Shown in pieces: positions 40,097 through 63,912 of a stretch of DNA of 64,000 bases. This stretch comes from Kiloniella laminariae DSM 19542 (GTDB taxonomy: Bacteria; Pseudomonadota; Alphaproteobacteria; Kiloniellales; Kiloniellaceae). The notes below the pieces were generated by a model. That model did not search any database. It saw only the letters and a list, made by a program, of their open reading frames with translations, and was not told the origin of the DNA. Position 1 is the first letter of the stretch, and the number at the start of each line of letters is the position of its first letter. A program made the translations under genes and the position numbers. The stretch is from the NCBI RefSeq assembly GCF_000374005.1, contig NZ_KB893136.1, positions 62,001 through 126,000 of the forward strand. Reading direction: 5' to 3'.

Positions 40097-40123
40097 ATAA
40101 TTCTGAACACAGGTTTCCTGCGA

Positions 40124-44812: not shown

Positions 44813-45228
44813 TTGCTTTCCTCTAAATACTTTTTCATCGAAGACAAGATAGGTTCAGGCCAGATCCTGGCCTTGCTGGTGGTCATATCAACACAAACAA
44901 GAGTGATCTTGCTTGTGCAGCGTACTTCGTTGTTACAAACAGCCTCTATAGTACAGTTCACACTGCTTTTACCGATCGCTGTAATCTTGAGACCAAAGAC
45001 CACAAGATCTTCCAGCCTGCTCATGGCCTTAAACTCGGTCTCCATTCGAACCGTTGGAACCGCGATCTTCTGATGGAGATGCATCTGGTGAAAACTGCTG
45101 CCAATAACCTGCTCAAACCACTCTTCAATTGTCAGGTTAAACATCTCGAAATAGCGGGGATAAAAAACAATCCCGGCAGGGTCGCAATGCTGAAAACGGA
45201 TGGTAACCGGAAGTTTAAAAGCCATCAT
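44809..45228 (-). CDS. 4-hydroxybenzoyl-CoA thioesterase family protein
   Basis: A 139-residue hot-dog fold thioesterase. The active-site segment RFQHCDPAGIVFYPRYFEMF with its Asp matches the Pseudomonas 4-hydroxybenzoyl-CoA thioesterase type. In this operon it may release CoA from dead-end aryl-CoA or acyl-CoA intermediates. A thioesterase in a 2-aminobenzoyl-CoA locus fits earlier reports for Azoarcus-type clusters, as far as I recall. It overlaps livF by 4 bp. Confidence 0.9.
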   Translation of the reverse strand: MMAFKLPVTIRFQHCDPAGIVFYPRYFEMFNLTIEEWFEQVIGSSFHQMHLHQKIAVPTVRMETEFKAMSRLEDLVVFGLKITAIGKSSVNCTIEAVCNNEVRCTSKITLVCVDMTTSKARIWPEPILSSMKKYLEESK

Positions 45229-45908
45229 ACCCCCAGATACTGATCACGAAGATCGTTCGTAAGCGCGGCAGGACGCCCGGTCCAGACACTGCGCCCTTTC
45301 TCCAGAATGACACAGCTGTCCGCAAGCGGTAACAGCTCGGAAAGTGTCTTGTCTACCACCAGTAAAGATTGTCCTTCGCCCTTCAATCTACGTATGGCAG
45401 ACCAGATTTCCTGCCGAATAACTGGCGCCAATCCCTCGGTAGCTTCATCCAGGATCAGGAGCTTTGGATTGGTCATCAATGCCCGACCGATTGCCAACAT
45501 CTGCTGTTCCCCGCCAGAAAGCGTATCGGCCATCTGCCCGGCACGCTCTCCCAGCCGTGGAAACAGCGACACAACCTTTGCATAATCCCAAGCACCCGAT
45601 CGTGCCGTCGCAACCAGATTTTCGTAAACAGTCAAACTGGCAAAACAGCGACGCCCTTCCGGAACCAGGCCTATCCCGGATCGCGCAGCCTGAAAACTGC
45701 GCAGTCCAGTCAGATCCTGCCCGTCAAAAACAATGTGTCCTCTTTTCGCAGGAGTCAGGCGACAGATCGAACGGATGGTCGTGGATTTGCCCATACCGTT
45801 ACGTCCCATCAGAGCAACCAGTTCTCCGGCTGCGACCGAGAGGTCCACACCAAACAATGCTTGGGACGGTCCGTAATAGGTTTCTATTTGAGAAACTTCC
45901 AACATCAT
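45225..45908 (-). CDS. livF: Branched-chain/aromatic ABC transporter ATPase LivF
   Basis: A 227-residue ATPase with Walker A GRNGMGKST, signature LSGGEQQMLAIGRALM and Walker B LLILDEATEGLAP. It pairs with the LivG protein on the cytoplasmic face. It lies in the minus-strand operon with 4-bp overlaps to both neighbours. Because the operon codes for anthranilate breakdown, the importer probably brings in anthranilate or a related aromatic acid rather than leucine; this is inferred from context. Confidence 0.93.
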   Translation of the reverse strand: MMLEVSQIETYYGPSQALFGVDLSVAAGELVALMGRNGMGKSTTIRSICRLTPAKRGHIVFDGQDLTGLRSFQAARSGIGLVPEGRRCFASLTVYENLVATARSGAWDYAKVVSLFPRLGERAGQMADTLSGGEQQMLAIGRALMTNPKLLILDEATEGLAPVIRQEIWSAIRRLKGEGQSLLVVDKTLSELLPLADSCVILEKGRSVWTGRPAALTNDLRDQYLGV

Positions 45909-46654
45909 TCTTCCGTCCCCAGATATGCTTCCCGAACAACCGGATCACGTCGGATCATATCTGCGCTGCCCTGCGCAATAATTTGTCCATAAACCAGAAC
46001 CGAGATCCGATCAGCCAGACGGAAAACCGCATCCATATCGTGCTCAACCAGCAGAATCGGTACTTCCTGTTTAAGTTCTTCCAGAAACCCGGTCAGTCTT
46101 TCTGATCCCCCTGCCCCCATCCCCGCCATCGGCTCATCTAGAAGAAGAACTTTGGGTTTAAGAGCCAGCGCACAGGCCACTTCGACCTGACGCCGTTCAC
46201 CATGGGAAAGCTCTGCAACCGGAACATCTGCCCGGGGCAAGAGCCCGACCCGGGCAAGAACTTTTTCTGTCGCCTCCAACTGTTCCAGATCCCTGTCTGT
46301 CTGTTTCCAGAAACTGAAACTGGTCCCGGTTACGGCCTGGCTGGCCATCATCACATTACGCCGTACTGACAGTGGCATAGCCAGGGAAGAAATCTGGAAA
46401 CAACGGCCCAGTCCTCTTTTTGCCCTGGCCGCGATACTCAAACCGGTTACATTTTCCTGGCCGAGATAAATATGGCCGGAATCTGGGGATAATCCGCCAG
46501 AGATTTGGGCAATCAGTGTCGATTTTCCAGCCCCGTTTGGTCCGATTAACGCATGAATTTCGCCAGGTTTAAGATCAAGGGTTACATCATCCGTTGCCTT
46601 CAGAGCACCAAAGCTTTTTCGCAGCTTTTCAATACGCAAAACCGCTTCAGTCAT
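45905..46654 (-). CDS. livG: Branched-chain/aromatic ABC transporter ATPase LivG
   Basis: A 249-residue ATPase with Walker A GPNGAGKST, signature LSHGERRQVEVACALA and Walker B VLLLDEPMAGMGA, typical for LivG, which has HGE instead of GGQ. The start at 46654 (MTEAVLRIEKL) overlaps the livM end by 8 bp; a start 27 bp further upstream would add residues encoded inside livM. Partner of LivF, LivH and LivM. Confidence 0.93.
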   Translation of the reverse strand: MTEAVLRIEKLRKSFGALKATDDVTLDLKPGEIHALIGPNGAGKSTLIAQISGGLSPDSGHIYLGQENVTGLSIAARAKRGLGRCFQISSLAMPLSVRRNVMMASQAVTGTSFSFWKQTDRDLEQLEATEKVLARVGLLPRADVPVAELSHGERRQVEVACALALKPKVLLLDEPMAGMGAGGSERLTGFLEELKQEVPILLVEHDMDAVFRLADRISVLVYGQIIAQGSADMIRRDPVVREAYLGTEE

Positions 46655-47627
46655 GGCGAGACCTCCCGGCAAGAAGCCCAATTAATCCACCATTGGCAAA
46701 CAACACAACACTCAAAAGAATCAAACCGAGAAAGAACTGCCAGTGCTGGGTAAATCCTCCAATGAACGTCTCCAGCAAGACAAAGACAACTGCCCCCGCC
46801 ACGGGACCAAAGAGCCTGCCGACACCACCGAGAATAACAATCACCATGAGTTCTCCCGAATGATGCCAACTCAACATACTTGGACTGACAAAACCATTCA
46901 GATCTGCAAATAACGCCCCGGCCCCGCTGGTAATCATTGCGGAAAGCACAAAGGCGGTCAGACGGATCGGAAAGGGTTCGACGCCAGAGGTTGCCAGGCG
47001 TACCTCATTCAGCCGTGCCATGGTCAGGGCCGCACCAAAGCGAGACCCCATAAGTCTTCTGGTGAAAAAAATCGAGAGCATAAGAGAAAAAAAGCAAATC
47101 CCGAAAAAGATGAGAGGATCTGAAGTATCGAGAGAAAACAGACTGTTACGAACATAAATTGACAATCCATCTTCACCGCCATAGGTGGGAAAGGAGATGG
47201 CAAAATAATAAATCATCTGGGCAAAAGCCAGGGTGATCATGATGAAGTAGACCCCCTGGGTCCGCAGGCTGATCACGCCAATAAATGCCGCGGCAAGCCC
47301 TGCCACAAGAACAGCAACCAGCCATATCACAGGCATCTGGTCACTGCCGGGAATCCCCCCAATGAAATAGGAACCATCAAAAGCATGATAGGCAGCAACG
47401 CCTGCAACATAGCCTCCCAGACCAAAGAATGCTGCATGGCCAAAACTGATAAGCCCCCCGAAACCCAAAGCAAGGTTAAGCCCCACAGCGGCCATGGCAA
47501 TGATAACCACCCGGGAAGCAAGGCTTACATAATAGGGCTCATCAAGCAGGCTGGCGCAGAGCGGAGCCAGCGCCAGTAACAACACCAGAACCGAGTTGAT
47601 CCAGCTTTCACGACTGAGTTTACGCAT
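46647..47627 (-). CDS. livM: Branched-chain/aromatic ABC transporter permease LivM
   Basis: A 326-residue inner-membrane permease of the LivM type, with about nine hydrophobic segments. Typical features are AAVGLNLALGFGGLISFGHAAF near the N-terminus (written here in part: LNLALGFGGLISFGHAAFFG) and the C-terminal GGVGRLFGPVAGAVVFVLLE. It overlaps livH by 8 bp and livG by 8 bp. Confidence 0.93.
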   Translation of the reverse strand: MRKLSRESWINSVLVLLLALAPLCASLLDEPYYVSLASRVVIIAMAAVGLNLALGFGGLISFGHAAFFGLGGYVAGVAAYHAFDGSYFIGGIPGSDQMPVIWLVAVLVAGLAAAFIGVISLRTQGVYFIMITLAFAQMIYYFAISFPTYGGEDGLSIYVRNSLFSLDTSDPLIFFGICFFSLMLSIFFTRRLMGSRFGAALTMARLNEVRLATSGVEPFPIRLTAFVLSAMITSGAGALFADLNGFVSPSMLSWHHSGELMVIVILGGVGRLFGPVAGAVVFVLLETFIGGFTQHWQFFLGLILLSVVLFANGGLIGLLAGRSRHD

Positions 47628-48540
47628 TTGCAGGGAACAATCCTTTTGGTTTCACCGCCAAAACCACGGCCATAAGAAGATAGATCAGCATTGATGCCAA
47701 AGCAGAACCCACACTGGTCGCATCCGCGTTATCAAGTATCAGGCTAAACAGGCTCGGCAGGAAAATTCGCCCCATCGTATCAACAACACCGACGAGCAGA
47801 GCCCCGACCAGAGCTCCTTTGATTGAGCCAATGCCTCCGATTACAATCACGACAAAAGCCAGGATCAACATCGGTTCTCCCATGCCGACCTGTACTGATT
47901 GCAACACCCCCAACAAGGATCCAGCCAATCCGGCAAGAACTGCTCCAACCGCAAATACAAAGGTATAAAGCGCTGAAATATTCACACCGAGTGCCCCGAT
48001 CATTTCCCGGTCATTTTCACCCGCCCGGATACGCATGCCAATTCGGGTCCGGGAAATCAGAAGATACAGCCCGATAGCAATAAGAATACCTACGAGGATA
48101 ATCATCAAACGATAGAGCGGATAGGTCACTCCCCCCGGAAGAGATACAGATCCACCAAGCAGATCAGGCATATCAAGCCAGAGTGGAGATGCTCCAAAAA
48201 TCCAGCTGGTTCCTTCTGAAAAAATCAGGATCAAGGCAAAAGTTGCCAAAACCTGATCCAGGTGATCTCTGTCATAAAGTCTGCGGATCACGACCAGCTC
48301 GATAATGGCGCCCATAACTCCCGCTCCCAGGGCTCCAGCCAGAAGCCCGACCCAGAAAGATCCTGTGATCCCTGCCACATAGGCACAGATAAAAGCTCCC
48401 ATCATATAGAGAGATCCGTGAGACAGATTGATCAACCCCATGACCCCGAAAACCAGAGTCAGCCCAGAAGCCATTGTAAACAGCATGACGCCCAGCTGAA
48501 CTCCGTTCAGGAGCTGCTCCAAAACCAGTGCAATACTCAT
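47620..48540 (-). CDS. livH: Branched-chain/aromatic ABC transporter permease LivH
   Basis: A 306-residue permease of the LivH type: it starts MSIALVLEQLLNGVQLGVML and contains GVMGLINLSHGSLYMMGAF and GGIGSIKGALVGALLVG. The start at 48540 follows GGGGAAG; the frame continues 57 bp upstream without a better site. It forms the membrane channel with LivM. The binding-protein gene is 63 bp upstream. Confidence 0.93.
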   Translation of the reverse strand: MSIALVLEQLLNGVQLGVMLFTMASGLTLVFGVMGLINLSHGSLYMMGAFICAYVAGITGSFWVGLLAGALGAGVMGAIIELVVIRRLYDRDHLDQVLATFALILIFSEGTSWIFGASPLWLDMPDLLGGSVSLPGGVTYPLYRLMIILVGILIAIGLYLLISRTRIGMRIRAGENDREMIGALGVNISALYTFVFAVGAVLAGLAGSLLGVLQSVQVGMGEPMLILAFVVIVIGGIGSIKGALVGALLVGVVDTMGRIFLPSLFSLILDNADATSVGSALASMLIYLLMAVVLAVKPKGLFPANA

Positions 48541-48603
48541 AAAAACTTCCCCTTGTGATGCATTCTCCCGCCCATTTTTTTGAGCGGGAGCACACACCAG
48601 TGC

Positions 48604-49746
48604 TTACATTTTGCACTCGGATGCATAGGCATCCTGAAGGTTTTCAATCGCAATACCAGCCAGTTTGTTGGTTGGTTTGCCGTCGGCACCAGCAACAACT
48701 TCCCGAATATAGATGTTCTGAATCGGATGGTTGTTTGAACCAAATTTAAATGCCCCCCGGACAGATTCAAACTCGGCTGCTTTCAATGCTGCCCGAAATG
48801 CTTCAGCATCGGAAGGAGCTGCCTTGGCAAGGGCAGAGAGCATCAGATTGGCGGTATCAAACCCCTGAGAAGCATAGAGTGTAGGTGTCCGGCCATATTT
48901 TTCTTTGAAGCTCTTAACAAAAGCCACATTGGCGGCGTTATCCATATCATGCGCCCACTGGGACGTATTTTTCACGCCAATAGCCGCATCACCAACCGCC
49001 CCCAGAATAACCTCGTCAAACGAGAAAGCAGGGCCGAAGACAGGTAACCCGACCTCTGCGCCACCATACTGTTTCATGAAAGAAATCCCCATCCCGCCAG
49101 GCAGGAAGAAGAAAACGCTGTCCGCTTTGGACGCTTTGATCTGGGCGATTTCAGCCGCATAATCGGTCTGACCAAGCTTGGTAAAAAGCTCTCCCTCAAC
49201 ATCGCCATAATATGATTTGAATCCAGTAAGGGCATCCACACCGGCAGGGTAATTCGGGGCAATAATAAAGGGAGCTTTCAAGCCTTCCTTCTTCATGTAG
49301 GCACCCATGGCCTCATGCAGGTTATTATTCTGCCAGGCAACGTTAAAATAATTCTCGTTGCAAAGCTTTCCAGCCAGGGCAGAAGGGCCGGCATTGGGAG
49401 AGAGATAGATTGTTCCATCCCGGACCACCTCAGGGATCACTGCCATCGCCAAATTGGACCAGATAATTCCGGTGAGGATGTCTACCTTTTCTTTCTGCAA
49501 CATCTCATTCGCCAGCGACTTGGCCAGTTCCGGCTTGCGGGCATCATCGCGGATTATCACCTCGACATCGCTTTTTGACTGCTCGATCGCCAGCATAAAA
49601 CCATCGCGCACATCAATACCAAGATGCGATCCACCACCGGATAATGTTGTAATCATTCCTACCTTGGTTTCTGCCAGAGCAGATACCGCCGTCATTGACG
49701 TTGCGGCCATGAGGGCCAAAACCCCCGCACTCACAAATCTTTTCAT
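48604..49746 (-). CDS. Periplasmic substrate-binding protein of the Liv-type importer
   Basis: A 380-residue Peripla_BP_6 (LivJ-like) protein. The signal peptide is MKRFVSAGVLALMAATSMTA, cleaved after SALA. It shows KVGMITTLSGGGSHLGID at the mature start and the RDDARKPELA stretch of the second strand. GGGAG precedes the ATG. Aromatic-acid importers use this same family, so anthranilate is a reasonable ligand given the neighbours, but the pocket cannot be read from sequence. Confidence 0.93.
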   Translation of the reverse strand: MKRFVSAGVLALMAATSMTAVSALAETKVGMITTLSGGGSHLGIDVRDGFMLAIEQSKSDVEVIIRDDARKPELAKSLANEMLQKEKVDILTGIIWSNLAMAVIPEVVRDGTIYLSPNAGPSALAGKLCNENYFNVAWQNNNLHEAMGAYMKKEGLKAPFIIAPNYPAGVDALTGFKSYYGDVEGELFTKLGQTDYAAEIAQIKASKADSVFFFLPGGMGISFMKQYGGAEVGLPVFGPAFSFDEVILGAVGDAAIGVKNTSQWAHDMDNAANVAFVKSFKEKYGRTPTLYASQGFDTANLMLSALAKAAPSDAEAFRAALKAAEFESVRGAFKFGSNNHPIQNIYIREVVAGADGKPTNKLAGIAIENLQDAYASECKM

Positions 49747-49817
49747 TCTCGTCTCCCTAAGAGCTCCTGTTAATATTGATCGGCACATTTTCGTGCTCGT
49801 TATTTTTGAAGCATAAT

Positions 49818-51440
49818 CTATGATTTCTGCTTCAATTTAAACCTTTGGATTTTCCCGGTCTGGGTTTTTGGTAATTCGTTTAGGAACCGGATCACCCTGG
49901 GGTATTTATAAGGGGCAATAGTTTCTTTCACATGGTTTTTTAGTGTTTCTGCCGTGTCATCGTCTGCGAGAACACCTTCGCGCAAAACAACATGAGCTTC
50001 AACGATCATTCCCCTAACATCATCCGGGGCACCGACTACTGCACATTCCATAACACTGGGGTGAAGCAACAGCGCCTGTTCTACGTCTGGCCCCGCAATG
50101 TTGTAGCCAGACGACACAATCATATCATCGGAGCGGGCAACAAAATGAAACTCTCCCGTTTCATCCTGATAGAAACTGTCTCCGGTTAAATTCCAGCCTT
50201 CACAGACATACTCCTGCTGACGACTATCCGCCAGATATCGGCAGCCCGTCGGGCCCTTTACCGCAAGGCGGCCAACTTCCCCGCGTGGAACTTCATTCAT
50301 CTTTTCATCAACAATAATCGCTTGATAACCCGTCAGCACGCGTCCGGTACTGCTGGCTTTGGCACTGTTCAACCTGTTGGAGATAAAGATATGCAAGAGT
50401 TCGGTTGCCCCTATTCCATCCAGGATCGGCTTCCCGGTTTTGGCAACCCATTCATCGAACACGGCTGCAGGCAGGGTCTCCCCGGCCGATACTGCGCAGC
50501 GCAGGCTCGAGAGATCCGCTCCTTGGTCCATGGCTTTCAGCATCACCCGATAGGCCGTTGGCGCCGTAAAACAGATTGTTGCTCCATAGGTCTCTATAAT
50601 CTTGATCATTTCTGGCGGAGAGGCATTTTCAAGCAGCGTCGCGGTTGCCCCAAAACGAAGCGGGAAGACGGCCAACCCACCCAGACCAAAGGTAAAGGCC
50701 AGCGGAGGTGATCCGACAAAAACATCCTCTGGTGTGACCTGCAAGACTTCCTTGGCATAAGCATCGGCAATGGTCAGCAAATCTCGGTGGAAATGCATGG
50801 TCGCCTTGGGATTTCCTGTGGTACCCGAGGTAAAGCCCAGCAATGCAACGTCATCCCGACCGGTTTGCACAGCAGAGAACTGAACCGGTTTTCCCAGGGC
50901 AACCCGGTCAAGTTCCGCATCGTGATTGGCAGTACCATCAAAGCCGACTACTTTTTTGAGATAGCTGCTTTCCTTGGCACAAATGACAAGTTCATCCATC
51001 AACCGGGTATCACAAAGTGCCAGGGCAATCTCGGCCTTGTCGATAATTTTGGCAAGCTCTCCTGCCCGTAACATTGGCATGCTATTGACCACAACCGCCC
51101 CTGCCTTGGTTGCTGCAAGCCAGCAGGCCACCATCGCCGGGTTGTTGGCAGAGCGGATCAGAATGCGGTGCCCGGGCTTCACTCCAAAGTCCTCAACCAG
51201 GGCATGAGCAATTCGATTGGTCCAGTCGGTCAGTTCTTTATAGGTACGCTGGCGACCGTTGCCAATCAGGGCCGTATGATCGCCAAATCCCTGATCAACC
51301 ATGTCATTGGTTAAACATACAGCCGCGTTGAGATATTCAGGATACTGGAAGTTTTCCCTCAGATATTCCGGCTGGCTTTCCGGAGGTGGCAAGTTATCGC
51401 GGGTAAAGCTGTCAACATGAGCAGATGGCCCCAACATCAT
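49818..51440 (-). CDS. 2-aminobenzoate-CoA ligase (aryl-CoA ligase)
   Basis: A 540-residue member of the ANL superfamily that activates an aromatic acid with ATP and CoA. The P-loop-like motif GFTSGTTGNPKATM, the aryl-binding GIGATELLHIF and the C-terminal catalytic Lys in PKTQTGKIQRF are intact. The subfamily is close to benzoate- and 2-aminobenzoate-CoA ligases; the monooxygenase/reductase four genes upstream makes anthranilate the likely substrate. It overlaps the acyl-CoA dehydrogenase gene by ATGA. Confidence 0.88.
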   Translation of the reverse strand: MMLGPSAHVDSFTRDNLPPPESQPEYLRENFQYPEYLNAAVCLTNDMVDQGFGDHTALIGNGRQRTYKELTDWTNRIAHALVEDFGVKPGHRILIRSANNPAMVACWLAATKAGAVVVNSMPMLRAGELAKIIDKAEIALALCDTRLMDELVICAKESSYLKKVVGFDGTANHDAELDRVALGKPVQFSAVQTGRDDVALLGFTSGTTGNPKATMHFHRDLLTIADAYAKEVLQVTPEDVFVGSPPLAFTFGLGGLAVFPLRFGATATLLENASPPEMIKIIETYGATICFTAPTAYRVMLKAMDQGADLSSLRCAVSAGETLPAAVFDEWVAKTGKPILDGIGATELLHIFISNRLNSAKASSTGRVLTGYQAIIVDEKMNEVPRGEVGRLAVKGPTGCRYLADSRQQEYVCEGWNLTGDSFYQDETGEFHFVARSDDMIVSSGYNIAGPDVEQALLLHPSVMECAVVGAPDDVRGMIVEAHVVLREGVLADDDTAETLKNHVKETIAPYKYPRVIRFLNELPKTQTGKIQRFKLKQKS

Positions 51441-52597
51441 TTGTTTTCTCCCTGTTTTCTGCTGATTTCCTGCCGCGCGATAACTATTTTCTGAACATCT
51501 GAGGCCCCTTCATAAATACGAAGGGCACGTATTTCCCGGTAAAGGCTTTCGACAACGCTGCCCTTGCGCACCCCGTCCCCACCGTGGATCTGTACTGCTT
51601 TGTCAATAACGCCTTGTGCCTGGTCTGTCGCAAAGAGTTTGGCCATGGCGGCCTCACGCGTCACTCTTGCAGCGCCCGTGTCTTTGGTCCAGGCGGCACG
51701 ATAAACCAGCAGGGCCGAAGCATCGATATCCACAGCCATTTCTGCAATATGCCCCTGGATCATCTGCAGTTCATGCATCGGAGCCCCAAACAATTGGCGG
51801 TCAGCACAGCGTTTCAGTGTTTCCTCCAGCGCCCGTCGGGCAAAACCAAGCGCGGCAGCCCCAACGGTTGAGCGAAATACATCCAGAACCGACATGGCAA
51901 TCTTGAAGCCGCTGCCCGCTTCACCAATCAGAGCTGAACGGGGGAGTTTGACCCTGTCAAATTTCAACCGCGCCAGAGGATGTGGTGCAATAACCTCCAG
52001 CCGTTCCTCAACCGTCAGCCCAGCCGTACTGGCTGGCACCAGAAACGCGGACAGACCTTTTGCTCCTGCAGCCTCTCCTGTTCGGGCAAAAACAACATAG
52101 AGATCAGCAATTCCTCCATTTGAAATCCAGGTTTTCTCGCCACTGAGAACAAAACCATCATCCGTACTTTCTGCCGACATTTGGATGTTCGCGACATCAG
52201 ATCCCGAAGCAGGCTCGGTCAGGGCAAAGGCCGATATCGCCTTGCCTGCGCGGGTTTGTCTCAGCCAGTCACGTTGCTCCCCGGAACCGAACAGGGAAAT
52301 CGCCCCCATTCCCAGCCCCTGCATGGCAAAGGAAAAATCAGCCAGCCCATCGTACCGGGCCAGAGTCTCGCGGATCAGACAGAGAGAGCGAACATCAAGG
52401 CGTTCCTGCCCGGTCGCTCCAGAATGGGTTAGAAACCCCGCGGCGCCCAAAGATGAAACCAGACCACGACAAGCAGAATCAACGTCGCTGTGATCAACCG
52501 GGAGATTACCTTTGCACCACACTTCAAGCTGTTCGACCAGTTCGCGGTGGCGGCTCTCGAAAAAGGGCCAGTTTAGAAATGATGTATCAGCCATCAA
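51437..52597 (-). CDS. Acyl-CoA dehydrogenase
   Basis: A 386-residue FAD enzyme. It has [40 protein letters not shown] and the C-terminal [20 protein letters not shown], then [11 protein letters not shown]. The usual catalytic Glu in the YEG segment (IYEGAS) is present. It would introduce a double bond in the CoA-thioester after ring reduction or opening. It overlaps both flanking genes by 4 bp. The exact substrate is inferred from the operon only. Confidence 0.92.
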
Positions 52598-53406
52598 TTT
52601 CCCTCGAATACAGGTTTTTTCTTGGCGACAAAGGCATGATAGGCACGCTCAAAATCCCGCGTCTGCATACAGATTGCCTGGGCTTGGGCTTCTGCTTCGA
52701 TCGCCTGATCCGGCGACATGTTCCATTCGTGATTTAACTGGGTCTTGGTAATCCCATTGGCAAAGGTCGGCCCGGAAGCAATACGCTTGGCCAGAACAAG
52801 TGCTTGTTCCTCCAGCTCTTCCGCAGGATGCAGGGCATTGAAATACCCCCAGTCATGCCCTTCTTTCGCTGACATACTTCGCCCGGTATAGAGCAGGTCC
52901 GCCGCCCTGCCCTGTCCGATAATCCGGGGAAGAATGGCACAGGCCCCCATATCACAACCGGCCAACCCAACCCTTGTAAAAAGGAATGCGGTCTTGGCAT
53001 CCGGGGTCGCCAGACGCAGATCCGAAGCCATGGTGATAATGGCACCAGCACCAACACATACGCCGTCCACTGCCGAAATAATTGGTTTACCACAGTTCAG
53101 CATGGCCTTGACCAGATCTCCGGTCATCCGGGTAAAGGCCAGAAGCTCTTTCATGTCCATTCCGACCAGAGGTCCGATAATCTCATGGACATCCCCACCA
53201 GAACAGAAGTTTCCGCCATTGGAGGCAAAAACAACGGCATTGATGTCCTCTGCATAAACCAGATTCCGAAAGGTATCTCTCAGTTCTGCATAACTTTCAA
53301 AAGTCAGCGGGTTTTTTCGCTCAGGACGGTCAAGCTGGATCACAGCGACGGAATCTTCCATGCGCCACTTGAAATGTTTCGGGGAAAGGTCTGCCATTGC
53401 CGTCAT
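52594..53406 (-). CDS. Enoyl-CoA hydratase/isomerase family protein
   Basis: A 270-residue crotonase. The oxyanion-hole motif is [18 protein letters not shown] and the second [19 protein letters not shown]; the catalytic Glu positions are less clear ([17 protein letters not shown]), so hydratase, isomerase or ring-opening hydrolase activity are all possible. In a 2-aminobenzoyl-CoA pathway a crotonase is expected to act on the alicyclic or ring-opened CoA ester. ATGA overlaps link it to the MarR gene and the dehydrogenase. Confidence 0.88.
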
Positions 53407-53873
53407 GATTTTTTGTCCTCTATAGCTTTCAACCGGCTGAGTACCGGAACCAATCCATCCAGATCTTCGTCGTCCAGTTCTGCGAAAAGATCATTAATAA
53501 GGGCCTCATGATCCCGGGCCATCCCTTCAAACACCTTACGACCATGCGCGGTCAGGCACACCAGCATCGCCCGTCGATCTCCCTCGACATTTACCCGAAG
53601 TACAAGGCCATCGGTAACCAGACGTTCAATGATCCCGGTCACGTTACCGTTCGAAACCAGCAGCAGCTTTGACAATTCGCTCATCTTCAGACCGTCTGAG
53701 CTGCGATAGAGTGCTGCCATCACATCAAATCGGGGCAAGGTGGTATCGTAATTATCCCGGAGAAACTCGCGCAACCGGGCTTCAACAAACCTTGTTGTCC
53801 GCAACATGCGGATCCACATGCGCAAGCGCCGCTTGTTCAAGGACATATCGCTTTTGCTGGATGGCAAGGTCAT
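53403..53873 (-). CDS. MarR family transcriptional regulator
   Basis: A 156-residue winged-helix regulator. The DNA-binding part is seen in [40 protein letters not shown] and the wing [13 protein letters not shown]. MarR proteins commonly control aromatic-acid-CoA pathways by responding to the acid or its CoA ester. It sits inside the operon, between SDR and crotonase genes, so it is made with its targets. The start at 53873 forms ATGA with the SDR stop. Likely operators are the inverted repeats at 57019-57058. Confidence 0.93.
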
Positions 53874-54616
53874 ATCTCTCCTCCAGAAAGGGCGATCGCC
53901 TGCCCATTGATTGACCGGGCAGCATCCCGGCAAAGCCACAAAGCCGTATCAGCAACCTCCTGTGGTTGAATCAAGCGTTTTTGCGGGTTGTTATCGGCAA
54001 GAATCTGGCGAGCCTGGTCAGCGGTCTTTCCTGTCTTTGCCACAATGTTTTCTATCGATTTCTCTGTCATCTCCGTATCCAGAAACCCGGGACAGATGGC
54101 ATTAACCGTGGTGCCCGATTTGGCCACTTCCAGTGCAAGCGCACGCACCAGTCCAACGACACCATGTTTCGCAGCGGTGTAGGGGGCAACATAGGCATAG
54201 CCCTTCAGGCCAGCAGTAGAGGCAACCGCAATCAGGCGTCCTCCTTGTTGCGGCATTTGCTGCAGCCCATCGCGAAAGGTCAAAAAGGTTCCGGTCAGAT
54301 TAACCGCAAGGGTGTTTTGCCAGTCTTCCAGGCTGGTTTTATGCAGCGGTGCACTCCCCGACATCCCCGCATTGGCAATCACAATATCGATCTGCCCTGC
54401 TGTCGCATAGATATTGGCGACGGATTTTTCATCCGTTACATCTGCCACAACATAGGAAATAACCGGGTCTTTTGCAGCGGTCGCCCGGAGCTTGTCTTCC
54501 CGGCGTCCAGCAATCCAGACCTTTGCGCCAGCAGCCGCAAAACTTGCCGCCATAACAGCACCAACCCCACTGCCACCCCCGGTGATCAGCACAGTTTTTC
54601 CCGTCAACTCTGTCAT
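53870..54616 (-). CDS. Short-chain dehydrogenase/reductase
   Basis: A 248-residue classical SDR. The cofactor motif is [15 protein letters not shown] is present ([10 protein letters not shown]), and the catalytic Ser and YxxxK lie in [20 protein letters not shown]. It ends at the MarR start with ATGA and begins inside the monooxygenase stop. It is likely to oxidise a hydroxy or reduce a keto group of an alicyclic CoA ester; substrate is unknown. Confidence 0.92.
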
Positions 54617-56907
54617 GCCCGTACCACCATGGCTTCGGCTTTTTCTGCCAAGCGATAGAGCTGGTCACGCCCTGCCAGATAGGGAGCGGGCCATTGCAGA
54701 CTTTTCTCGCCCAGGCTCGCCCCGGCATGCAGGGTCCAGTAAGGATCAGCCAGATGAGGACGTGCCATACACACCAGATCTGCACGCCCGGCCATCAGGA
54801 TTGAATTGACATGATCTGGCTCGTAAATATTGCCCACCGCCATGGTCGCAATTCCCAACTCGTTGCGAATACGATCGGCAAAGGGCGTCTGGAACATACG
54901 TCCATAAACCGGCTTTGCCTCTTTCGAAGTCTGCCCGGCAGAAACATCAATAATGTCAACGCCGGCTTCGTGGAACAGACGGGCGATTTCCACAGCATCG
55001 TCCTGTGTGATGCCAACATCATCAACCCAATCCACAGCGGAGATACGAACAGACATCGGTTTATCGGCAGGCCAGACCGCCCGCATTGCCATGAAGACTT
55101 CCAAAGGATAACGCATCCGGTTTTCAAGGCTGCCACCATATTCATCCTCACGGATATTAGACAGCGGCGATATGAAAGAAGATATCAGGTACCCATGCGC
55201 GGCATGAAGTTCAATCATATCAAAACCGGAACGCGCTGCCATTTTAGTGGCATTCACAAACTGATCTCGCACCTCTGTCATATCTTCACGGTCCATTGCT
55301 TTTGGAACGGCATTATTTACTGACCAAGGTATGGCTGAAGCTGAAAGCAATGACCAGTTCCCCTCGGCCAGCGGGGCATCCATCTCCTCCCAACCGAGTT
55401 GCGTTGAGCCCTTGCGCCCCGCATGGCCAATCTGGCAGCAGATTTTTGCTTCCGTTTCCCTGTGGACAAAATCCACAAGCTTCTTCCAGCCCGCTTCCTG
55501 TTCCGGGCTGTACAAGCCCGGGCAGCCTGGCGTGATCCTGGCATCGGCGCTGACACAGGTCATCTCGACATAGACCAGTCCGGCACCTCCCTTGGCCCGC
55601 TCGGCATAATGAACAAAATGCCAGTCCCCAGGCACACCATCGACAGCTTTATATTGGGCCATAGGTGAAACCACGATCCGGTTTTTCACTTCAAGATTCC
55701 CGATCTTGAATGGCGTAAACATCGGTGCCTTGCCAGAACCCGGGGGTTGTCCCGCCTGGATCTGGAACCAGTCTTCAGCAGATTCCAGCCACTCCTTGTC
55801 GCGAACCCGGAGGTTTTCATGACTGATCCGTTGTGATCTTGTCAGCAGAGCATAGTTGAACTGCACCGGATCAAAATCGACATAGCGTTCCACATTTTCG
55901 AACCATTCAAGCGAGTTTCTTGCAGCAGATTGTAATCGCAGGACTTCAACGCGGCGTTCTTCCTGATAGCGCTCAAAAGCCGTCTCCATCGAGGTTTCAT
56001 GATCAAGATAATTCGCCAGAGAGATCGCACTGTCGAAAGCAAGGCGCGTGCCCGAACCTATGGAAAAATGTCCGGTTGCCGCAGCATCCCCCATCAACAC
56101 CACATTGTCATGGTGCCATTTCTCACAGATAACCCTTGGGAAATTCATCCAGACAGCAGAACCGCGAAGATGATCGGCATTGGAGATCAGGGCATTACCG
56201 TCAAGGTATTTGGCAAAGACCCTCTCGCAAGTCGCGATGGTTTCTTCCTTGGACATATCGGCAAAGCCAAAATTGTTCCAGGTTTCATCCGTGCATTCAA
56301 CAATCACCGTCGCGGTATTGTCGTCGAATTGATAGGCGTGTACCCAGACCCAGCCATGCTCGGTCTCTTCAAAGATAAAGGTAAAGGCGTCATTGAATTT
56401 CTGATGGGTGCCGAGCCAGATAAACTTGCACAGCCGGACATCAACATCGGGCTGGAACTGCTCTTTGTATTCATTGCGCACAGCCGAATTGATACCGTCA
56501 GCGGCGACAACCAGATCAAATTCTTTTTTATAGTCCTCGACCGGACCGAACAGGGTTGCGAAGCGTAGATCCACGCCCAACTCGCGAGCTCGGGCCTGAA
56601 GAATAATCAGCATCTGCTTGCGGCTGATCCCGGCAAAACCGTGCCCACCGGAAACGGTGCGCGTGCCCTTGTGATGCACGGCGATATCATCCCAATAGGC
56701 AAAGTTCTCACGGATCTGCTCGGCGCTCTCAGGATCGTTTTCGAGCATATTACCCAAAGCATCATCTGACAGAACCACGCCCCAGCCGAAGGTGTCCTCG
56801 GCGTTGTTACGCTCAATCACCACAACTTCATGCGTGGGATCCTTGAGCTTCATGCTGATGGCAAAGTAGAGCCCGGCTGGACCGCCCCCAAGACAGACAA
56901 TCTTCAT
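54613..56907 (-). CDS. 2-aminobenzoyl-CoA monooxygenase/reductase (bifunctional flavoprotein)
   Basis: A 764-residue fusion of two flavoenzymes. Residues 1-395 are an FAD-dependent aromatic hydroxylase (GGGPAG at 8-13; [18 protein letters not shown] for FAD). Residues from about 396 are an Old Yellow Enzyme-type FMN reductase ([49 protein letters not shown]). This architecture is known for the Azoarcus evansii enzyme, which hydroxylates and then reduces the ring; databases also call it salicylyl-CoA 5-hydroxylase/oxidoreductase. GGGAGGA precedes the ATG. First gene of the minus-strand operon. Confidence 0.92.
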
Positions 56908-57167: not shown

Positions 57168-58313
57168 ATGAATGACGGCACTGTCATCGGTGTAATTGGC
57201 GCAGGAGCCATGGGGCGGGGAATTGCCCAGATCATGGCGACTGGCGGTTACAGGGTCGTGCTGGTCGATACCAATGAGGCCGCACTTGAGACGGCCCGAC
57301 AAGCCATTGCCGCGACCCTGGACAAGGCCATCGCCCGCAATCTGATGACGCCTGAAGATAAAACCGCTGTTCTCGCCCGGATCACGCCTGAACTCACGCT
57401 GGAGAGTCTGGCGTCTGCGGATCTGGTGATCGAAGCCATCGTCGAACAGCTGGAGGTCAAGGCCGGGCTGTTTGCCAGACTGGAGGCCATCTGCCGCAGC
57501 GATACCCTCTTTTGCACCAACACCTCTTCGCTGTCGGTTACAAAAATCGCCGCCGGGCTGCTTCATAAGTCCCGGCTTGTCGGCATGCATTTTTTTAACC
57601 CGCCACATATCATGAAACTGGTCGAGGTGATCGAAACGCCTGAAACTCCGGAAGCGGTCATCACGAGGGTTATGCAGCTCGCCCGGAAAATCGGCAAACA
57701 GCCGATCCGGGCCAAGGACCGTCCGGGTTTTGTCGTCAACCGCTGCGCCCGCCCCTATTACGGCGAGGCACTCTGTATTCTGGAAGAAGGTAATTTCACC
57801 GCAGCCCAGATAGATACCGCCCTGCACAGCGCGGGCTATCGCCTTGGCCCCTTCGAGCTGATTGATCTGGTCGGGGCTGACATCAACTATGCCGCCACGC
57901 TGAGCGTATGGGAAGCGCTGGAACGCCACCCGCGCTATCAGCCCTTTGACCGTCTGAAACAGCAGGTTGATGCAGGCAAGTTCGGTCAGAAATCCGGCGA
58001 AGGCTTCACCCTGCCCAAGGCCTCGGTTACAGAACTTTCCCCCGAAGCCGCCGCCAGCATTGTCGCGCGGATCGAGGCCACCCTGATCAACGAGGCCCAT
58101 TTTGTCGAGGCCGAGAGCACGGCATCGCGAGCGGATATTGACCAGGCGCTGCTGTTGGGGTTGAATTTCCCCCGCGGTCCTTTTGCCATGGCAACAGGTG
58201 ACAAACGCAGCGCCACGATTGCCCTCCTTGAAAAGCTGCACCACTCAGCGCCTGACCATTTAAAAGAGCGCTATACCATCGCCCCAAACCTTACAGGTAG
58301 CCATCATGACTGA
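57168..58313 (+). CDS. 3-hydroxyacyl-CoA dehydrogenase
   Basis: A 381-residue NAD enzyme oxidising 3-hydroxyacyl-CoA to the 3-keto compound. The Rossmann motif VIGVIGAGAMGRGIAQ opens the protein; NTSSLSVT, MHFFNPPHIMKLVEVI and RPGFVVNR are standard. It has two C-terminal 3HCDH domains (roughly residues 185-280 and 300-370), like PaaH-type enzymes, rather than the single one of short HADs. The start at 57168 follows GAGGCG. The next gene overlaps by 8 bp. It supplies the NAD domain missing from the FadB-like protein at the operon end. Confidence 0.93.
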   Translation: MNDGTVIGVIGAGAMGRGIAQIMATGGYRVVLVDTNEAALETARQAIAATLDKAIARNLMTPEDKTAVLARITPELTLESLASADLVIEAIVEQLEVKAGLFARLEAICRSDTLFCTNTSSLSVTKIAAGLLHKSRLVGMHFFNPPHIMKLVEVIETPETPEAVITRVMQLARKIGKQPIRAKDRPGFVVNRCARPYYGEALCILEEGNFTAAQIDTALHSAGYRLGPFELIDLVGADINYAATLSVWEALERHPRYQPFDRLKQQVDAGKFGQKSGEGFTLPKASVTELSPEAAASIVARIEATLINEAHFVEAESTASRADIDQALLLGLNFPRGPFAMATGDKRSATIALLEKLHHSAPDHLKERYTIAPNLTGSHHD

Positions 58314-59508
58314 ACTCAAGCAGGTTTTCATTTGTCAGGGCAAACGCACCCCGATCGGTAGATACGGCGGCGCCCTCAGCAGCCAGCGCCCAGATGATCT
58401 TGCCGCCGGGGTAATCAACGCCCTGCTTGAGGGAACAGACGACCTTCCAGTTGATGAAGTTGTCTTCGGTTGCGCCAATCAGGCCGGGGAAGACAACCGC
58501 AATGTTGCCCGAATGGCCGTACTGCTTTCCCGCCTGCCCGAAACGGTCCCTGCCCTGACGGTCAACCGGCTCTGTGCCTCTGGCCTTGATGCGGTGATCT
58601 CTGCTGCCCGGACCATCCAGTGTGGCGCAGCCGAGATAATTATCGCCGGGGGCGTCGAAAGCATGTCCCGCGCGCCCTTTGTCATGTCCAAATCCGAAAC
58701 CGCCTTTGGTCGCGCCCCGGAAATCTTTGACAGCACCATTGGCTGGCGCTTTGTCCACAAGGCCATTGCCAGCGAATACGGCATCGACAGCATGCCAGAA
58801 ACCGCTGAAAACGTGGCCGAAGCCTATGGTATTACCCGCACCGATCAGGATGCCTTTGCCCTGCGCAGCCAGCAACGCACGACTCGCGCCCAGACGGAAG
58901 GTTATTTCGAGGCGGAGATCAGCCCGGTTTCCATCAAACAGCGCAAGGGACCCGATCTGATCGTCAGCCGCGATGAACATCCGCGCGAAACCAGCCTCGA
59001 CAAACTCGCCAGCCTGCCCACACCCTTTCGCTCTCCCGGTACGGTCACGGCGGGGAATGCCAGCGGTGTCAATGATGGAGCCTGTGCCCTGTTGCTGGCC
59101 TCTGAATCAGCGGTCAAGACCCACAATCTGATGCCGCTGGCCCGCTTTACTGCCGCAACATCTGCAGGTGTCGCGCCCCGTCTGATGGGCCTTGGCCCCA
59201 TTGCTGCGCTGGAAAGGCTCACGGCCCTGACCGGGCAGACAGCCACGTCCTTTGACCACATCGAACTGAACGAGGCTTTTGCCGCCCAGGCCCTTGCCTG
59301 TCTGCGGGCCTGGAAGCTGGCTGATGATGCAGCGACAGTTAATCCGAACGGCGGAGCCATCGCCTTGGGGCACCCTCTTGGCATGACCGGGGCACGACTG
59401 GTTCTGTCCGCCAGCCGCGCCCTATCCGAAGGGAACGCCAGGACAGCCTTAGCAAGCCTTTGCGTCGGTGTTGGCCAGGGTGTCGCCCTTGCCCTTGCCA
59501 GAGTTTGA
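58306..59508 (+). CDS. Acetyl-CoA acyltransferase, 3-oxoadipyl-CoA thiolase type
   Basis: A 400-residue thiolase that cleaves a 3-ketoacyl-CoA with CoA. Active-site residues are Cys90 in [10 protein letters not shown], His in [16 protein letters not shown] and the second Cys in [13 protein letters not shown]. The sequence [25 protein letters not shown] and [11 protein letters not shown] follows the PcaF/PaaJ subfamily, which takes dicarboxylic 3-oxoacyl-CoAs. A dicarboxylic product is just what ring opening of an aromatic CoA ester would give. Confidence 0.92.
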
Positions 59509-59554
59509 CCCAAACAACCAAAATAGCACAAACCAGATCAGGGAAACCCAAACA

Positions 59555-60760
59555 ATGACACCGGAAGAAGCCCGAAAGAAACCCGAAGCGCTAAAATGGG
59601 AAGACCCGTTCCTGCTCGAGGATCAGCTGGAAGAAGAAGAGCGCATGATCCGCGACAGCGCCGCCGCCTATTGCGCCGACAAGCTGGCTCCCCTGGTTAT
59701 CGAAGCCAACAGACACGAAAAGTTTGACCGGGAAATCATGTCTGAAATGGGTGAGCTGGGGCTGCTGGGGTCAACTATTCCCGAAGAGTACGGCGGGGTT
59801 GGTACGAACTATGTTTCTTATGGTCTGGTTGCCCGCGAGGTCGAGCGGATCGACAGCGGCTATCGCTCCGCCATGTCGGTTCAGTCCAGTCTGGTTATTC
59901 ATCCGATCTTTGCCTATGGCACCGAAGAACAACGTCTGAAGTATCTGCCCAAACTGACCGCCGGGGAATGGGTCGGCTGTTTTGGCCTGACCGAGCCGGA
60001 TCATGGATCTGATCCCGGTTCGATGATCACCCGGGCCAAGGCTGTGGATGGTGGCTATCTGATATCCGGGGCAAAAAACTGGATTACCAACTCACCCATT
60101 GCCGATGTTTTTGTCATCTGGGCCAAGTCAGACAAACACGACGGCAAGATCAAGGGATTCATTCTGGAAAAGGGCATGCAGGGACTGGCCGCGCCAAAGA
60201 TCGAAGGCAAGTTTTCGTTGCGCGCCTCGATCACCGGAATGATCCAGATGGACGAGGTTTTTGTCCCCGAAGAAAATCTGCTGCCCCACGTGCAAGGACT
60301 AGCTGGGCCTTTCGGTTGTCTCAACCGTGCAAGATATGGCATCGCCTGGGGCGCCATGGGTGCGGCAGAGGCCTGCTGGCATGCCGCCCGTAGCTATACC
60401 CTTGACCGCAAACAGTTTGGACGGCCGCTGGCCCAAACCCAGCTGGTGCAGAAAAAACTGGCGGACATGCAGACCGAAATCAGTCTCGGCCTGCAGGGGG
60501 CACTCAGGCTCGGGCGGCTGTTCGACCGCAATGTCGCCCCGGCGGAACTGATCAGCCTGATGAAGCGCAACAACTGTGGCAAGGCGCTGGACATTGCCCG
60601 GGTATCCCGCGACATGCATGGGGGCAACGGAGTGTCCGATGAATATGGAGTAATCCGCCACGTCATGAACCTTGAAGCGGTCAACACCTATGAGGGCACA
60701 CACGATATCCACGCCCTGATCCTTGGTCGGGCCCAGACAGGACTGCAGGCGTTTCAATGA
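59555..60760 (+). CDS. gcdH: Glutaryl-CoA dehydrogenase
   Basis: A 401-residue acyl-CoA dehydrogenase that oxidatively decarboxylates glutaryl-CoA to crotonyl-CoA. Subfamily marks are the N-terminal [20 protein letters not shown], the FAD motif [14 protein letters not shown], the [20 protein letters not shown] catalytic Glu region and the C-terminal [19 protein letters not shown]. The start at 59555 follows AGGGA; the frame extends 87 bp upstream into the thiolase gene and is disregarded. Its presence points to glutaryl-CoA as an intermediate of this pathway. It overlaps the hydrolase frame at its stop. Confidence 0.93.
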
Positions 60761-60774
60761 AAAGAGATCTGCCG

Positions 60775-61611
60775 ATGATTACCGACTGGAATGATGCCTA
60801 TGACAACGCCGGGCATATCGACGGGGCCAGAGAGTATCCGCCGCGCTGGAATGCCCTGGCCCTGTCATTCCGGGAGGAAATGAGCGCAGCGGGCCGAGCA
60901 GAGCTAGATCTGGCTTATGGGACAGGCCCGCGCAACAAACTGGATCTCTTTTTGCCTGCCCCCTCGACAGCCTCATCAGACCCAAAAGGATTGGCTGTCT
61001 TTGTTCATGGTGGCTTCTGGAAAGCCTTTGACAAATCGACCTGGTCTCATCTTGCCAGAGGCGCGGTTGAACAGGGTTGGGCGATTTGCTTGCCCAGTTA
61101 CAGTCTCGCCCCGGAAGCACGAATTTCGACCATGACCGGGGAAATTGCCGCAGCGATCAGCTTCGCCGCCCTGCGTATATCCGGACCTATTCACCTGTCC
61201 GGGCATTCTGCTGGCGGGCATCTGGTATCACGCATGGTCTGTGCAGACAGCCCGCTGCCGCCCGCGATCAGGCAACGACTGGGGCATGTGCTGTCGATCA
61301 GTGGTCTGCATGACCTGCGCCCGCTGTTGCATACCGAAATGAACAAGATCTTGCAACTGGACGCCACAGAGGCACAAAACGAAAGTGCTGCCCTGCACCA
61401 GCCAGCCGGGAATTGCCCGATCAGCTGCTGGGTCGGTGCAGACGAGCGCCCGGCTTTCCTCTTGCAAAATGACCTGCTCGCCACCGTCTGGGCAGGGCTG
61501 GGTGCCGAAACCGAAATCAGGCATCAGTCCGAAAAACACCATTTTGATGTTATCAACGATCTGGCAAATCCGGACTCAGCCCTGACCAATTGTCTGCTGC
61601 AACAGAAGTAA
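60775..61611 (+). CDS. Alpha/beta hydrolase, arylformamidase-like
   Basis: A 278-residue esterase-type hydrolase. The oxyanion motif FVHGGFWKAFDKS and the nucleophile elbow LSGHSAGGHLV are clear, and the late Asp and His are likely from ADERPAF and SEKHHFDV. The sequence resembles the alpha/beta-hydrolase N-formylkynurenine formamidases; in an anthranilate locus, deformylation of N-formylkynurenine or N-formylanthranilate is a reasonable guess. The start may be 60757, with ATGA at the gcdH stop, or 60775, which has the better site AAAGAGATC upstream. Confidence 0.8.
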   Translation: MITDWNDAYDNAGHIDGAREYPPRWNALALSFREEMSAAGRAELDLAYGTGPRNKLDLFLPAPSTASSDPKGLAVFVHGGFWKAFDKSTWSHLARGAVEQGWAICLPSYSLAPEARISTMTGEIAAAISFAALRISGPIHLSGHSAGGHLVSRMVCADSPLPPAIRQRLGHVLSISGLHDLRPLLHTEMNKILQLDATEAQNESAALHQPAGNCPISCWVGADERPAFLLQNDLLATVWAGLGAETEIRHQSEKHHFDVINDLANPDSALTNCLLQQK

Positions 61612-61623: not shown

Positions 61624-62877
61624 ATGAAGTCTGCGTCCGATCCTATCGACGGTCTGGTGTCGCTTGTACGTGAAGGCAAGATCGCCCTTGTGACCATCGA
61701 CAATCCCCCGGTGAATGCCACAAGCCACGCCGTGCGCAGCGGATTGGTCGCTGCCGCAGAGGAAATTGACCGCGATCCCGCCATTCAGGCCGTGGTTCTG
61801 ATCTGTGCAGGCCGGACCTTTATCGCCGGGGCTGATATTACAGAGTTCAACAAACCCCCTGTCGAGCCGATTTTATCCGATGTAATCCCCCGGCTGGAAC
61901 AGTCTAGTAAAGTCTGGATTGCCGCGATCCATGGCACCGCCCTGGGCGGCGGGCTGGAAGTTGCCCTGGGCTGTCATTACCGTCTGGCTGTCGCCACGGC
62001 AAAATTTGGCTTTCCCGAGGTTAATCTGGGCCTGATTCCCGGCGCAGGTGGCACCGTGCGTCTACCCCGCCTGATTGCCACCCGCCCGGCCATGGAGATG
62101 ATTTCGACTGGGAAGATTATCAACGCAGAAGACGCACTGGCATGGGGACTACTTGACAAGATCATTCCCGATGAACCTGAAATAACTCTGCGGGAGCAGG
62201 CCCTGGCCTTTGCCAAGGCGCTATTGAAAAAAAACTTGCCCTTGCCCCTGTCACAGCGCCCGGCGTCTGCCCCGCTTGCCGCTGGCGATCTGGAAAGCCT
62301 GAAAAGACAAATCACGGAGAAAAAAGCGGGACAGCTTGCCCCAGTCGAAGCCCTTGCCGCAGTACAGGAGGCAACTACACTCTCTGCAGCAGAGGCCTTG
62401 CTGAGCGAAAGGGAACGCTTTAACAGATTGAAACAGGGCGAGCAGTCCAAAGCCCTGCGCTATATCTTCTTTGCTGAAAAAGCGTTGTTTAAACAGCTGA
62501 AACCCACAGGCATTTCGGATCTGAGCGAGGGTAATTCTTTCCTGCACGATGGTCTTTTAGGACAGCGTTTGATGGCCGCCTATAACCGGGAACTCCGGTC
62601 AATAAAAGATGATATTCCCGAGTTTGCAAACCCGAGCCAATCCGAGCAAAAGGATTTTGGCCTGCTGGCTGACCTCATGGTCAGAGAGGCAACTGATACA
62701 ACCGACGAGACACGGCAAATGATCATTACACGGCTGCTTCTTACCCTGCAAAGTGAGGGGCAGAAACTGGTCACAGAAACCCCTGATCTTACAAACGAGA
62801 GTATCGACGCCGTTCTGGTCAGCTGTTTTGCCTTCCCGCGCTGGCGTGGTGGGCCAATGTACCTGCAGCAAAAATAG
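61624..62877 (+). CDS. FadB-like enoyl-CoA hydratase lacking the NAD-binding domain
   Basis: A 417-residue protein. Residues about 10-195 are a crotonase: AGRTFIAGADITEF and GFPEVNLGLIPGAGGTVRLP hold oxyanion and catalytic Glu. Residues about 195-290 are the helical linker of FadB-type enzymes (EALLSERERFNRL, then LRYIFFAEKALFK). The Rossmann NAD domain and the first 3HCDH domain expected next are absent, and the protein goes straight to the last 3HCDH domain (FGLLADLMVREA, then CFAFPRWRGGPMYL). Full-length FadB is about 715 residues. The frame is intact, so this is a domain deletion, not a frameshift. Confidence 0.9.
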   Translation: MKSASDPIDGLVSLVREGKIALVTIDNPPVNATSHAVRSGLVAAAEEIDRDPAIQAVVLICAGRTFIAGADITEFNKPPVEPILSDVIPRLEQSSKVWIAAIHGTALGGGLEVALGCHYRLAVATAKFGFPEVNLGLIPGAGGTVRLPRLIATRPAMEMISTGKIINAEDALAWGLLDKIIPDEPEITLREQALAFAKALLKKNLPLPLSQRPASAPLAAGDLESLKRQITEKKAGQLAPVEALAAVQEATTLSAAEALLSERERFNRLKQGEQSKALRYIFFAEKALFKQLKPTGISDLSEGNSFLHDGLLGQRLMAAYNRELRSIKDDIPEFANPSQSEQKDFGLLADLMVREATDTTDETRQMIITRLLLTLQSEGQKLVTETPDLTNESIDAVLVSCFAFPRWRGGPMYLQQK

Positions 62878-62949: not shown

Positions 62950-62991
62950 TCAGAACAGCATGTTTGTATAATTAAGGTGTCGCTTCTGACT

Positions 62992-63237
62992 TTACCCGGA
63001 AAAAGCTTTAAACCCGACAATCGAATAGGTATCGCGGATACCCGGAATGGTCTGGACTTCGCTGGTGATAAAACGCCCGACATCGATTTCGGAATCAAGG
63101 TGGAACACCAGCATCAGATCGTACTCGCCGGAAATCGAATAGGTCGCAGGCGGCGGATCAACCCGGTCGGCAATATCAGCGGCAACGTCATAAACCTTGC
63201 CCAGTTCACACTTAACCATCACGAATGTCGTATTCAT
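62992..63237 (-). CDS. Stand-alone AsnC/Lrp ligand-binding (RAM) domain protein
   Basis: An 81-residue protein that is only the RAM domain of Lrp/AsnC regulators, without DNA-binding helices: VMVKCELGKVYDVAADIADR, SISGEYDLMLVFHLDS and DTYSIVGFKAF. Such small proteins form oligomers that bind amino acids and may modulate full-length regulators by co-assembly. The start at 63237 has only a weak ribosome site. It converges with the anthranilate operon and has its own transcription. Confidence 0.88.
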   Translation of the reverse strand: MNTTFVMVKCELGKVYDVAADIADRVDPPPATYSISGEYDLMLVFHLDSEIDVGRFITSEVQTIPGIRDTYSIVGFKAFSG

Positions 63238-63620: not shown

Positions 63621-63645
63621 TCTTTTCCACAGAAGGAGAGATTAA

Positions 63646-63912
63646 ATGAAGAAATCCCGTTTCAGCGAAGAGCAGATTATCGGTATTTTGAAAACACACT
63701 AGGCTGGTATATCAGCCCGAGAGCTTTGCAGGAAGCACGGCATAAGCGATGCCACATTTTACAACTGGCGTTCAAAATATGGCGGGCTTGAAGTATCAGA
63801 AGCCAAGCGTTTGAAGTCCCTTGAAGCAGAGAATCAGAAGCTTAAGAAGTTACTGGCAGAACAAATGCTTGATGTTGCTACCTTGAAAGAAATGCTTGGA
63901 AAAAACTTCTAA
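63646..63912 (+). pseudogene. IS3-family orfA with an internal amber codon
   Basis: OrfA of an IS3-type transposase (HTH_Tnp_1): MKKSRFSEEQIIGILKTH, then TAG at 63700-63702, then AGISARELCRKHGISDATFY and a leucine-zipper-like C-terminus (LEAENQKLKKLLAEQM). GGAGAG lies before the ATG. In relatives the stop position is usually Glu or Gln, so one base change explains it. The slippery heptamer A AAA AAC at 63900-63906 precedes the stop. Confidence 0.8.

Follow-up and report, generated by a model that had tools for sequence, protein, structure and literature searches.

At the end of a putative catabolic operon in the 64,000-nucleotide stretch of Kiloniella DNA analysed here (the window), an open frame encodes what appears to be a FadB-type multifunctional enzyme that lacks its NAD-binding domain, domain C of the rat peroxisomal homologue MFE1. 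This raises the question of what such a protein does and why it would retain any part of its dehydrogenase half. The explanation that we favour, and hold with good confidence, is that a bifunctional FadB/MFE1-type enzyme has become a monofunctional enoyl-CoA hydratase by in-frame deletion, that what is left of its two 3HCDH domains (D and E) braces the linker helix, and that a separate 3-hydroxyacyl-CoA dehydrogenase (HAD) carries out the lost step.

Architecture of the 417-residue protein

The frame is intact; it begins with ATG, preceded by an RBS-like AAGGGA, and follows closely on the preceding gene, whose stop is at 61611. Domain boundaries were taken from pairwise alignment of pieces of the protein with L111 (652 aa), the closest full-length relative.

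61624..62877, + strand: domain-C-less FadB/MFE1-type protein, 417 aa, predicted monofunctional enoyl-CoA hydratase (ORF; Pfam ECH_1 only)
61657..62517, + strand: residues 12-298, crotonase domain A and linker helix-10 (L111 4-286, alignment score 726)
62548..62613, + strand: residues 309-330, remnant of the first 3HCDH domain (D), GLLGQRLMAAY (L111 472-493; profile against shuffles)
62704..62874, + strand: residues 361-417, first half of the last 3HCDH domain (E), support-loop motif FPRWRGGPM at 404-412 (L111 595-651)

Pfam matched ECH_1 at residues 17-203 and neither 3HCDH_N nor 3HCDH. The G-G--G motif of the NAD-binding domain is missing as well, and instead of two complete 3HCDH domains there are only the remnants at 309-330 and 361-417, which lie below Pfam detection. 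A phmmer comparison with PDB 6ium placed residues 19-290 on the crotonase domain and linker, 365-413 on the last 3HCDH domain and, weakly, 307-330 on the start of the first. Relative to L111, about 185 residues (287-471) corresponding to the Rossmann domain, which Pfam places at 293-468 of L111, are lost, as are about 100 residues (494-594) now replaced by a spacer of ~30 residues, for a net loss of about 245 residues rather than the roughly 300 given by the first-pass annotation. The main claim of that annotation, that the NAD domain had been cleanly deleted with the frame left open, is borne out by Pfam, phmmer and the L111 alignment alike. It was also right that no trace of the Rossmann fold is left, but the first 3HCDH domain, which it had counted as missing too, is still recognisable by its first helix alone (309-330), and the last 3HCDH domain, which it had described as retained, is present only in its first half. 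The missing end of that domain is shared with full-length L111-L113 and L010, which end right past GGP (L114 reaches the contig end).

The first-helix remnant was examined with a profile of the start segment of the first 3HCDH domain, which the window protein matched weakly (E 0.07) and its K. laminariae counterpart, described below, at E 2.6e-5; both C-termini beat 998 shuffles. A MAFFT alignment had placed residues 309-330 at the start of the Rossmann domain, an assignment that was rejected, as the Rossmann-start profile gave no match while the first-3HCDH-helix profile did.

The operon and its ancestry

The gene is the last of five in an operon that opens, as the first-pass annotation had it and Pfam agrees, with a separate hydroxyacyl-CoA dehydrogenase carrying two 3HCDH stretches.

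57168..58313 (ATG at 57141 also possible), + strand: separate HAD, first gene of the operon (Pfam 3HCDH_N 216 bits, two 3HCDH stretches)
58306..59508, + strand: 3-oxoadipyl-CoA-type thiolase (NCBIfam PRK09050 607 bits, cut-off 605; pcaF 600.2, cut-off 597)
59468..60760, + strand: acyl-CoA dehydrogenase, probably glutaryl-CoA dehydrogenase (Pfam Acyl-CoA_dh domains; NCBIfam all below cut-off)
60757..61611, + strand: alpha/beta hydrolase (NCBIfam HaHSL_fam 369 bits, cut-off 320)
54613..56907, - strand: ACMR-type flavin monooxygenase/OYE fusion, divergent to the operon (NCBIfam PRK08255 1301 bits, cut-off 1078)
45225..54616, - strand: remaining cluster of branched-chain-type ABC transporter, CoA ligase, acyl-CoA dehydrogenase, enoyl-CoA hydratase (PRK08258), MarR regulator and SDR (ORFs)

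The best NCBIfam match of the HAD, PRK08268, scored under its cut-off. For the remaining cluster, Pfam and NCBIfam cover 51437-54616, and the ABC transporter and ligase were named by eye. The salicylyl-CoA 5-hydroxylase/oxidoreductase type represented by PRK08255 also takes in ACMR enzymes, and by this family match, the fusion flavoprotein is of the 2-aminobenzoyl-CoA monooxygenase/reductase or salicylyl-CoA 5-hydroxylase type. It is accompanied by the CoA ligase, hydratase, acyl-CoA dehydrogenase, SDR and MarR genes that characterise ACMR-type (2-aminobenzoyl-CoA) clusters, and the gene order is kept in other Alphaproteobacteria. Judged from gene content, the cluster reads as one for the aerobic breakdown of anthranilate or a similar aromatic acid via CoA thioesters. 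The HAD, thiolase, acyl-CoA dehydrogenase and predicted hydratase would then form its lower beta-oxidation branch, in which we infer both the placement of the hydratase and its substrate.

The nearest full-length relatives of the protein (633-653 aa) are found in the same kind of cluster. In L111, L126 and L127, the FadB-like gene is accompanied by the hydrolase and ACMR genes, in L112 by the acyl-CoA dehydrogenase and hydrolase genes as well, and L113, L114 and L129 are also ACMR clusters. The alpha/beta hydrolase is thus conserved beside full-length relatives (L111, L112, L126 and L127), and the acyl-CoA dehydrogenase (59468-60760) is 80-83% identical to the product of the neighbouring gene in L112, L114 and L129. 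These seven FadB-like proteins are 45-53% identical to the 417-residue protein over the crotonase domain and linker and, where complete, end early past GGPM as it does; they differ in having an intact Rossmann domain and no separate HAD gene alongside. Indeed, when the operon's HAD was used in tblastn around all seven loci, the only dehydrogenase found was the one within the FadB-like protein, whereas the operon in Kiloniella is headed by a HAD that is encoded separately and brings two 3HCDH domains of its own. Loss of the dehydrogenase half therefore goes together with a stand-alone dehydrogenase here. In a tree of the crotonase and linker part, the two Kiloniella proteins are nested within a 13-row clade (97/85) that contains these ACMR-cluster proteins. 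The ancestor would accordingly have been a bifunctional hydratase and dehydrogenase of an aminobenzoyl-CoA catabolic cluster, and an in-frame deletion would have cost it the NAD-binding domain together with the greater part of the first 3HCDH domain, with the HAD at the head of the operon taking over the dehydrogenase step. A search for this HAD in 385 genomes of the class at E 1e-120 matched only the window's own genome, which has three other strong 3HCDH_N matches.

Two minor features lie 3' of the operon, both read by eye: what is apparently a short Lrp/AsnC ligand-binding-domain protein just past its end (62977-63235, - strand) and, close to the window end, an IS3-like transposase orfA with an in-frame stop (63640-63910).

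Conservation and selection

K. laminariae G21630-S1 carries a protein of the same short architecture at the same operon position (411 aa, 62% identity; L038:7968-9203). Seven other Kiloniella congeners searched, one of them only 77% complete, have neither the domain-C-less gene nor the ACMR gene. The first-pass annotation had reasoned that full NAD domains at this locus in close relatives would point to an isolated deletion or an assembly error; the sole congener with the locus is short too, and an assembly error is ruled out by the occurrence of the same form in this independent assembly.

The domain-C-less gene is the least conserved of the operon, at 62% identity against 80-98% for its neighbours, and this faster evolution fits a weakening function as well. 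One could accordingly suppose that the in-frame deletion took place in the common ancestor of the two species and that the remnant has been fading ever since, as other hydratases suffice; the genome does encode other crotonases. However, dN/dS between the two Kiloniella genes is about 0.2-0.26 in the crotonase, linker and C-terminal segments (C-terminal dS being near saturation), and the C-terminal parts are 47% identical, against 28% (maximum 37%) over 1000 shuffles of the same substitutions, so that the observed value exceeds every one of them. Purifying selection is acting even on the C-terminal part. The frame has also stayed open in two species with dS above 1, the catalytic residues are intact, and parallel short forms have been retained across genera elsewhere. 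This is not clearly a dying gene, and we consider decay an improbable explanation compared with a retained, predicted hydratase.

A separate observation concerns 54613-58313, where dS relative to K. laminariae G21630-S1 is low for the HAD (0.15) and ACMR (0.36) genes and about 0.8-1.2 in the flanking genes, which looks like a recombination tract spanning the divergent promoter.

Predicted activity and a probable role of the remnant

The crotonase domain has both catalytic glutamates, E112 (GGGLE) and E132 (FPEV), and these are invariant in alignment A1 along with F282 and E285 of the linker. In place of the crotonase C-terminal helices there is linker helix-10: the L111 alignment extends to residue 298, the motif FFAEK lies at 282-286, and the structure model has a helix at 273-295. 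By alignment and motif counting, F282, E285 and K286 correspond to F271, E274 and K275 of rat MFE1, and R406 to R657. The residue equivalent to Asn481 (G-NR motif), given as a catalytic dehydrogenase residue of rat MFE1 (PMC5715344), is Gln in both Kiloniella proteins. Judging from its residues and domains, the protein cannot be a dehydrogenase.

Crotonases catalyse varied reactions, and the cluster has another crotonase (PRK08258) and a hydrolase besides. The protein might therefore perform a changed chemistry, such as opening the ring of the ACMR product by hydrolysis or isomerising that product; the dehydrogenase half would then have been dropped for want of an oxidation step. We regard this as very unlikely: both catalytic glutamates are as in MFE1-type hydratases, and the full-length relatives in such clusters retain the dehydrogenase, so the ancestral product was probably oxidised.

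For the hydratase that we predict instead, rat MFE1 provides a reason for keeping parts of domains D and E. There, the crotonase fold has the linker helix as its helix-10; this helix covers the active site and packs on domain E, to which it is joined by the Arg657-Glu274 salt bridge, and the hydratase needs D/E in cis for bracing this helix (PMC5715344). According to Kiema et al. 2002, as cited in PMC5715344, rat MFE1 without domain C keeps its hydratase activity fully, and constructs without D/E have none. By analogy, these engineering results, as they are cited there, predict natural domain-C loss with D/E parts kept. The helical D/E remnant of the Kiloniella protein would likewise pack on linker helix-10, which forms a lid over the active site of the hydratase, and may have been kept because the lid would otherwise not be held in place.

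AlphaFold was guided by an alignment of short forms only (A4), with A3 covering the N-terminal part only; earlier fragment-based guide alignments (A2 and local trials) misplaced the C-terminal fragments and were replaced by these two. With the short forms as alignment, mean pLDDT was 86 and pTM 0.84, the blocks for 361-417 reached 82-92, and the model is confident through the support loop and low in the spacer at 331-360. Foldseek aligned the model along 6ium over 656 columns with a TMq of 0.75, compared with about 0.63 for the crotonase and linker alone, although an rmsd of 10.4 across this span makes the placement loose; matches to rat MFE1 covered the crotonase and linker part only, ending at the linker. 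The higher TMq suggests that the C-terminal helices may occupy the place of domain E.

The first-pass annotation had offered a different role for the remnant, that of docking the hydratase onto the double-3HCDH dehydrogenase of the operon as a split FadB, a two-protein channelling complex. Both genes do share one operon in two species, and in MFE1 the dehydrogenase domains from which the remnant stems are packed against one another (PMC5715344). However, the HAD has a pair of 3HCDH domains of its own and thus offers no vacant position, half of domain E is all that remains, and the need of the MFE1 hydratase for D/E in cis explains retention through the linker helix without a partner.

Recurrence of domain-C loss

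The search for short forms took in 385 genomes of the class, 61 of the order and 398 of the phylum. In five more genomes, crotonase and linker matches lay in open frames of 454-506 aa, clear of contig ends, and on reading the five further matches are domain-C-less: G781 (438 aa), a genus represented by G480, G725 and G797 (472-486 aa, with a degenerate stretch at the former position of domain C) and G730 (446 aa). Five of 101 family members, each from a different genus, have the G730 form, and the other copies align with that of G730 end to end at 39-47%. The G480 form was found in 16 of 101; the open frames were 469-512 aa long in twelve of these, whereas in the other four they measured 538-637 aa and may be intermediate stages. 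Rhizobium and Sinorhizobium plasmid matches over residues 12-396 or more were rejected as short forms, being full-length proteins of about 676-782 aa. On the tree, the short label needs four changes, and four are forced by well-supported branches. Domain C thus seems to have been lost independently at least four times in bacteria, four being the minimum from the sampled genomes. The support-loop arginine (R406) and GGP are invariant in all 14 aligned short proteins; the G480-type family has Ala at the linker Glu position (FFAAR), so the linker salt bridge is not universal.

The first-pass annotation had proposed looking for such proteins beside double-3HCDH dehydrogenases. Short forms indeed turned up in three other lineages, but tblastn found no HAD gene within roughly 8-10 kb around the short genes (L121-L125). 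Nothing in the analysis calls for docking, which we think unlikely; bracing of the linker helix in cis remains the reading that we prefer.

With rat peroxisomal MFE1 and the FadB/PimF-type enzymes of bacteria (e.g., PDB 6ium and 3zw8), the 417-residue protein shares a crotonase domain with both catalytic glutamates, linker helix-10 and the (F/W)PR--GGPM motif; unlike them, it has no NAD-binding domain, and only a small piece of its first 3HCDH domain and one half of its last are left. Stand-alone enoyl-CoA hydratases (crotonase, PaaF) share the expected reaction but are about 260 aa long, with their own C-terminal helices and no 3HCDH-derived extension. The engineered rat MFE1 of Kiema et al. 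2002, as cited in PMC5715344, also has domain C cut and D/E parts kept, whereas the Kiloniella protein is natural and bacterial, has in addition lost the greater part of D as well as the end of E, and is a hydratase by prediction. Natural loss of domain C would thus repeat an old laboratory deletion experiment.

Hydratase-dehydrogenase fusions are usually viewed as a gain through channelling. Here, the fusion has been reversed, seemingly only as far as structure permits, with the NAD domain lost and the probable brace of the hydratase retained. We lean somewhat towards a general form of this idea, in which domain-C-less FadB/MFE1 recurs in nature as a form of the enzyme: no fewer than four lineages would have dropped the NAD domain yet kept a D/E-derived helical brace, since the crotonase gave up its own C-terminal helices at fusion and full shedding of the dehydrogenase half was thereby blocked. 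If true, gene fusion would here have led to structural entrenchment. With four independent cases, full-length cluster relatives and a rat MFE1 counterpart, the unfusing of a fused enzyme, and the residues preventing it, become directly testable. The literature searched, which took in few subscription papers, contained no description of natural domain-C-less forms. Pfam detects the crotonase alone in such proteins, and they are therefore easily filed as plain enoyl-CoA hydratases or fragments.

Several short forms have features of their own. In the family with the degenerate stretch instead of the NAD domain and with the four frames of intermediate length (L122:9372-10787, L123, L124 and L146-L151), the short FadB-like genes are adjoined by genes for a TRAP transporter and a PimC-like acyl-CoA dehydrogenase. 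In two G730-type proteins (L143:1288-2799 and L144:1477-2817), a catalytic Glu of the crotonase domain is replaced by Asp (FPDV and WPDV; L143 also has GAGAD), and they may therefore have another activity. Elsewhere in the window, 29748-40744 holds, by eye, an ordinary nucleoside uptake and salvage cluster with an ABC transporter, purine nucleoside phosphorylase, deoC, deoA, deoB, adenosine deaminase and thymidine kinase.
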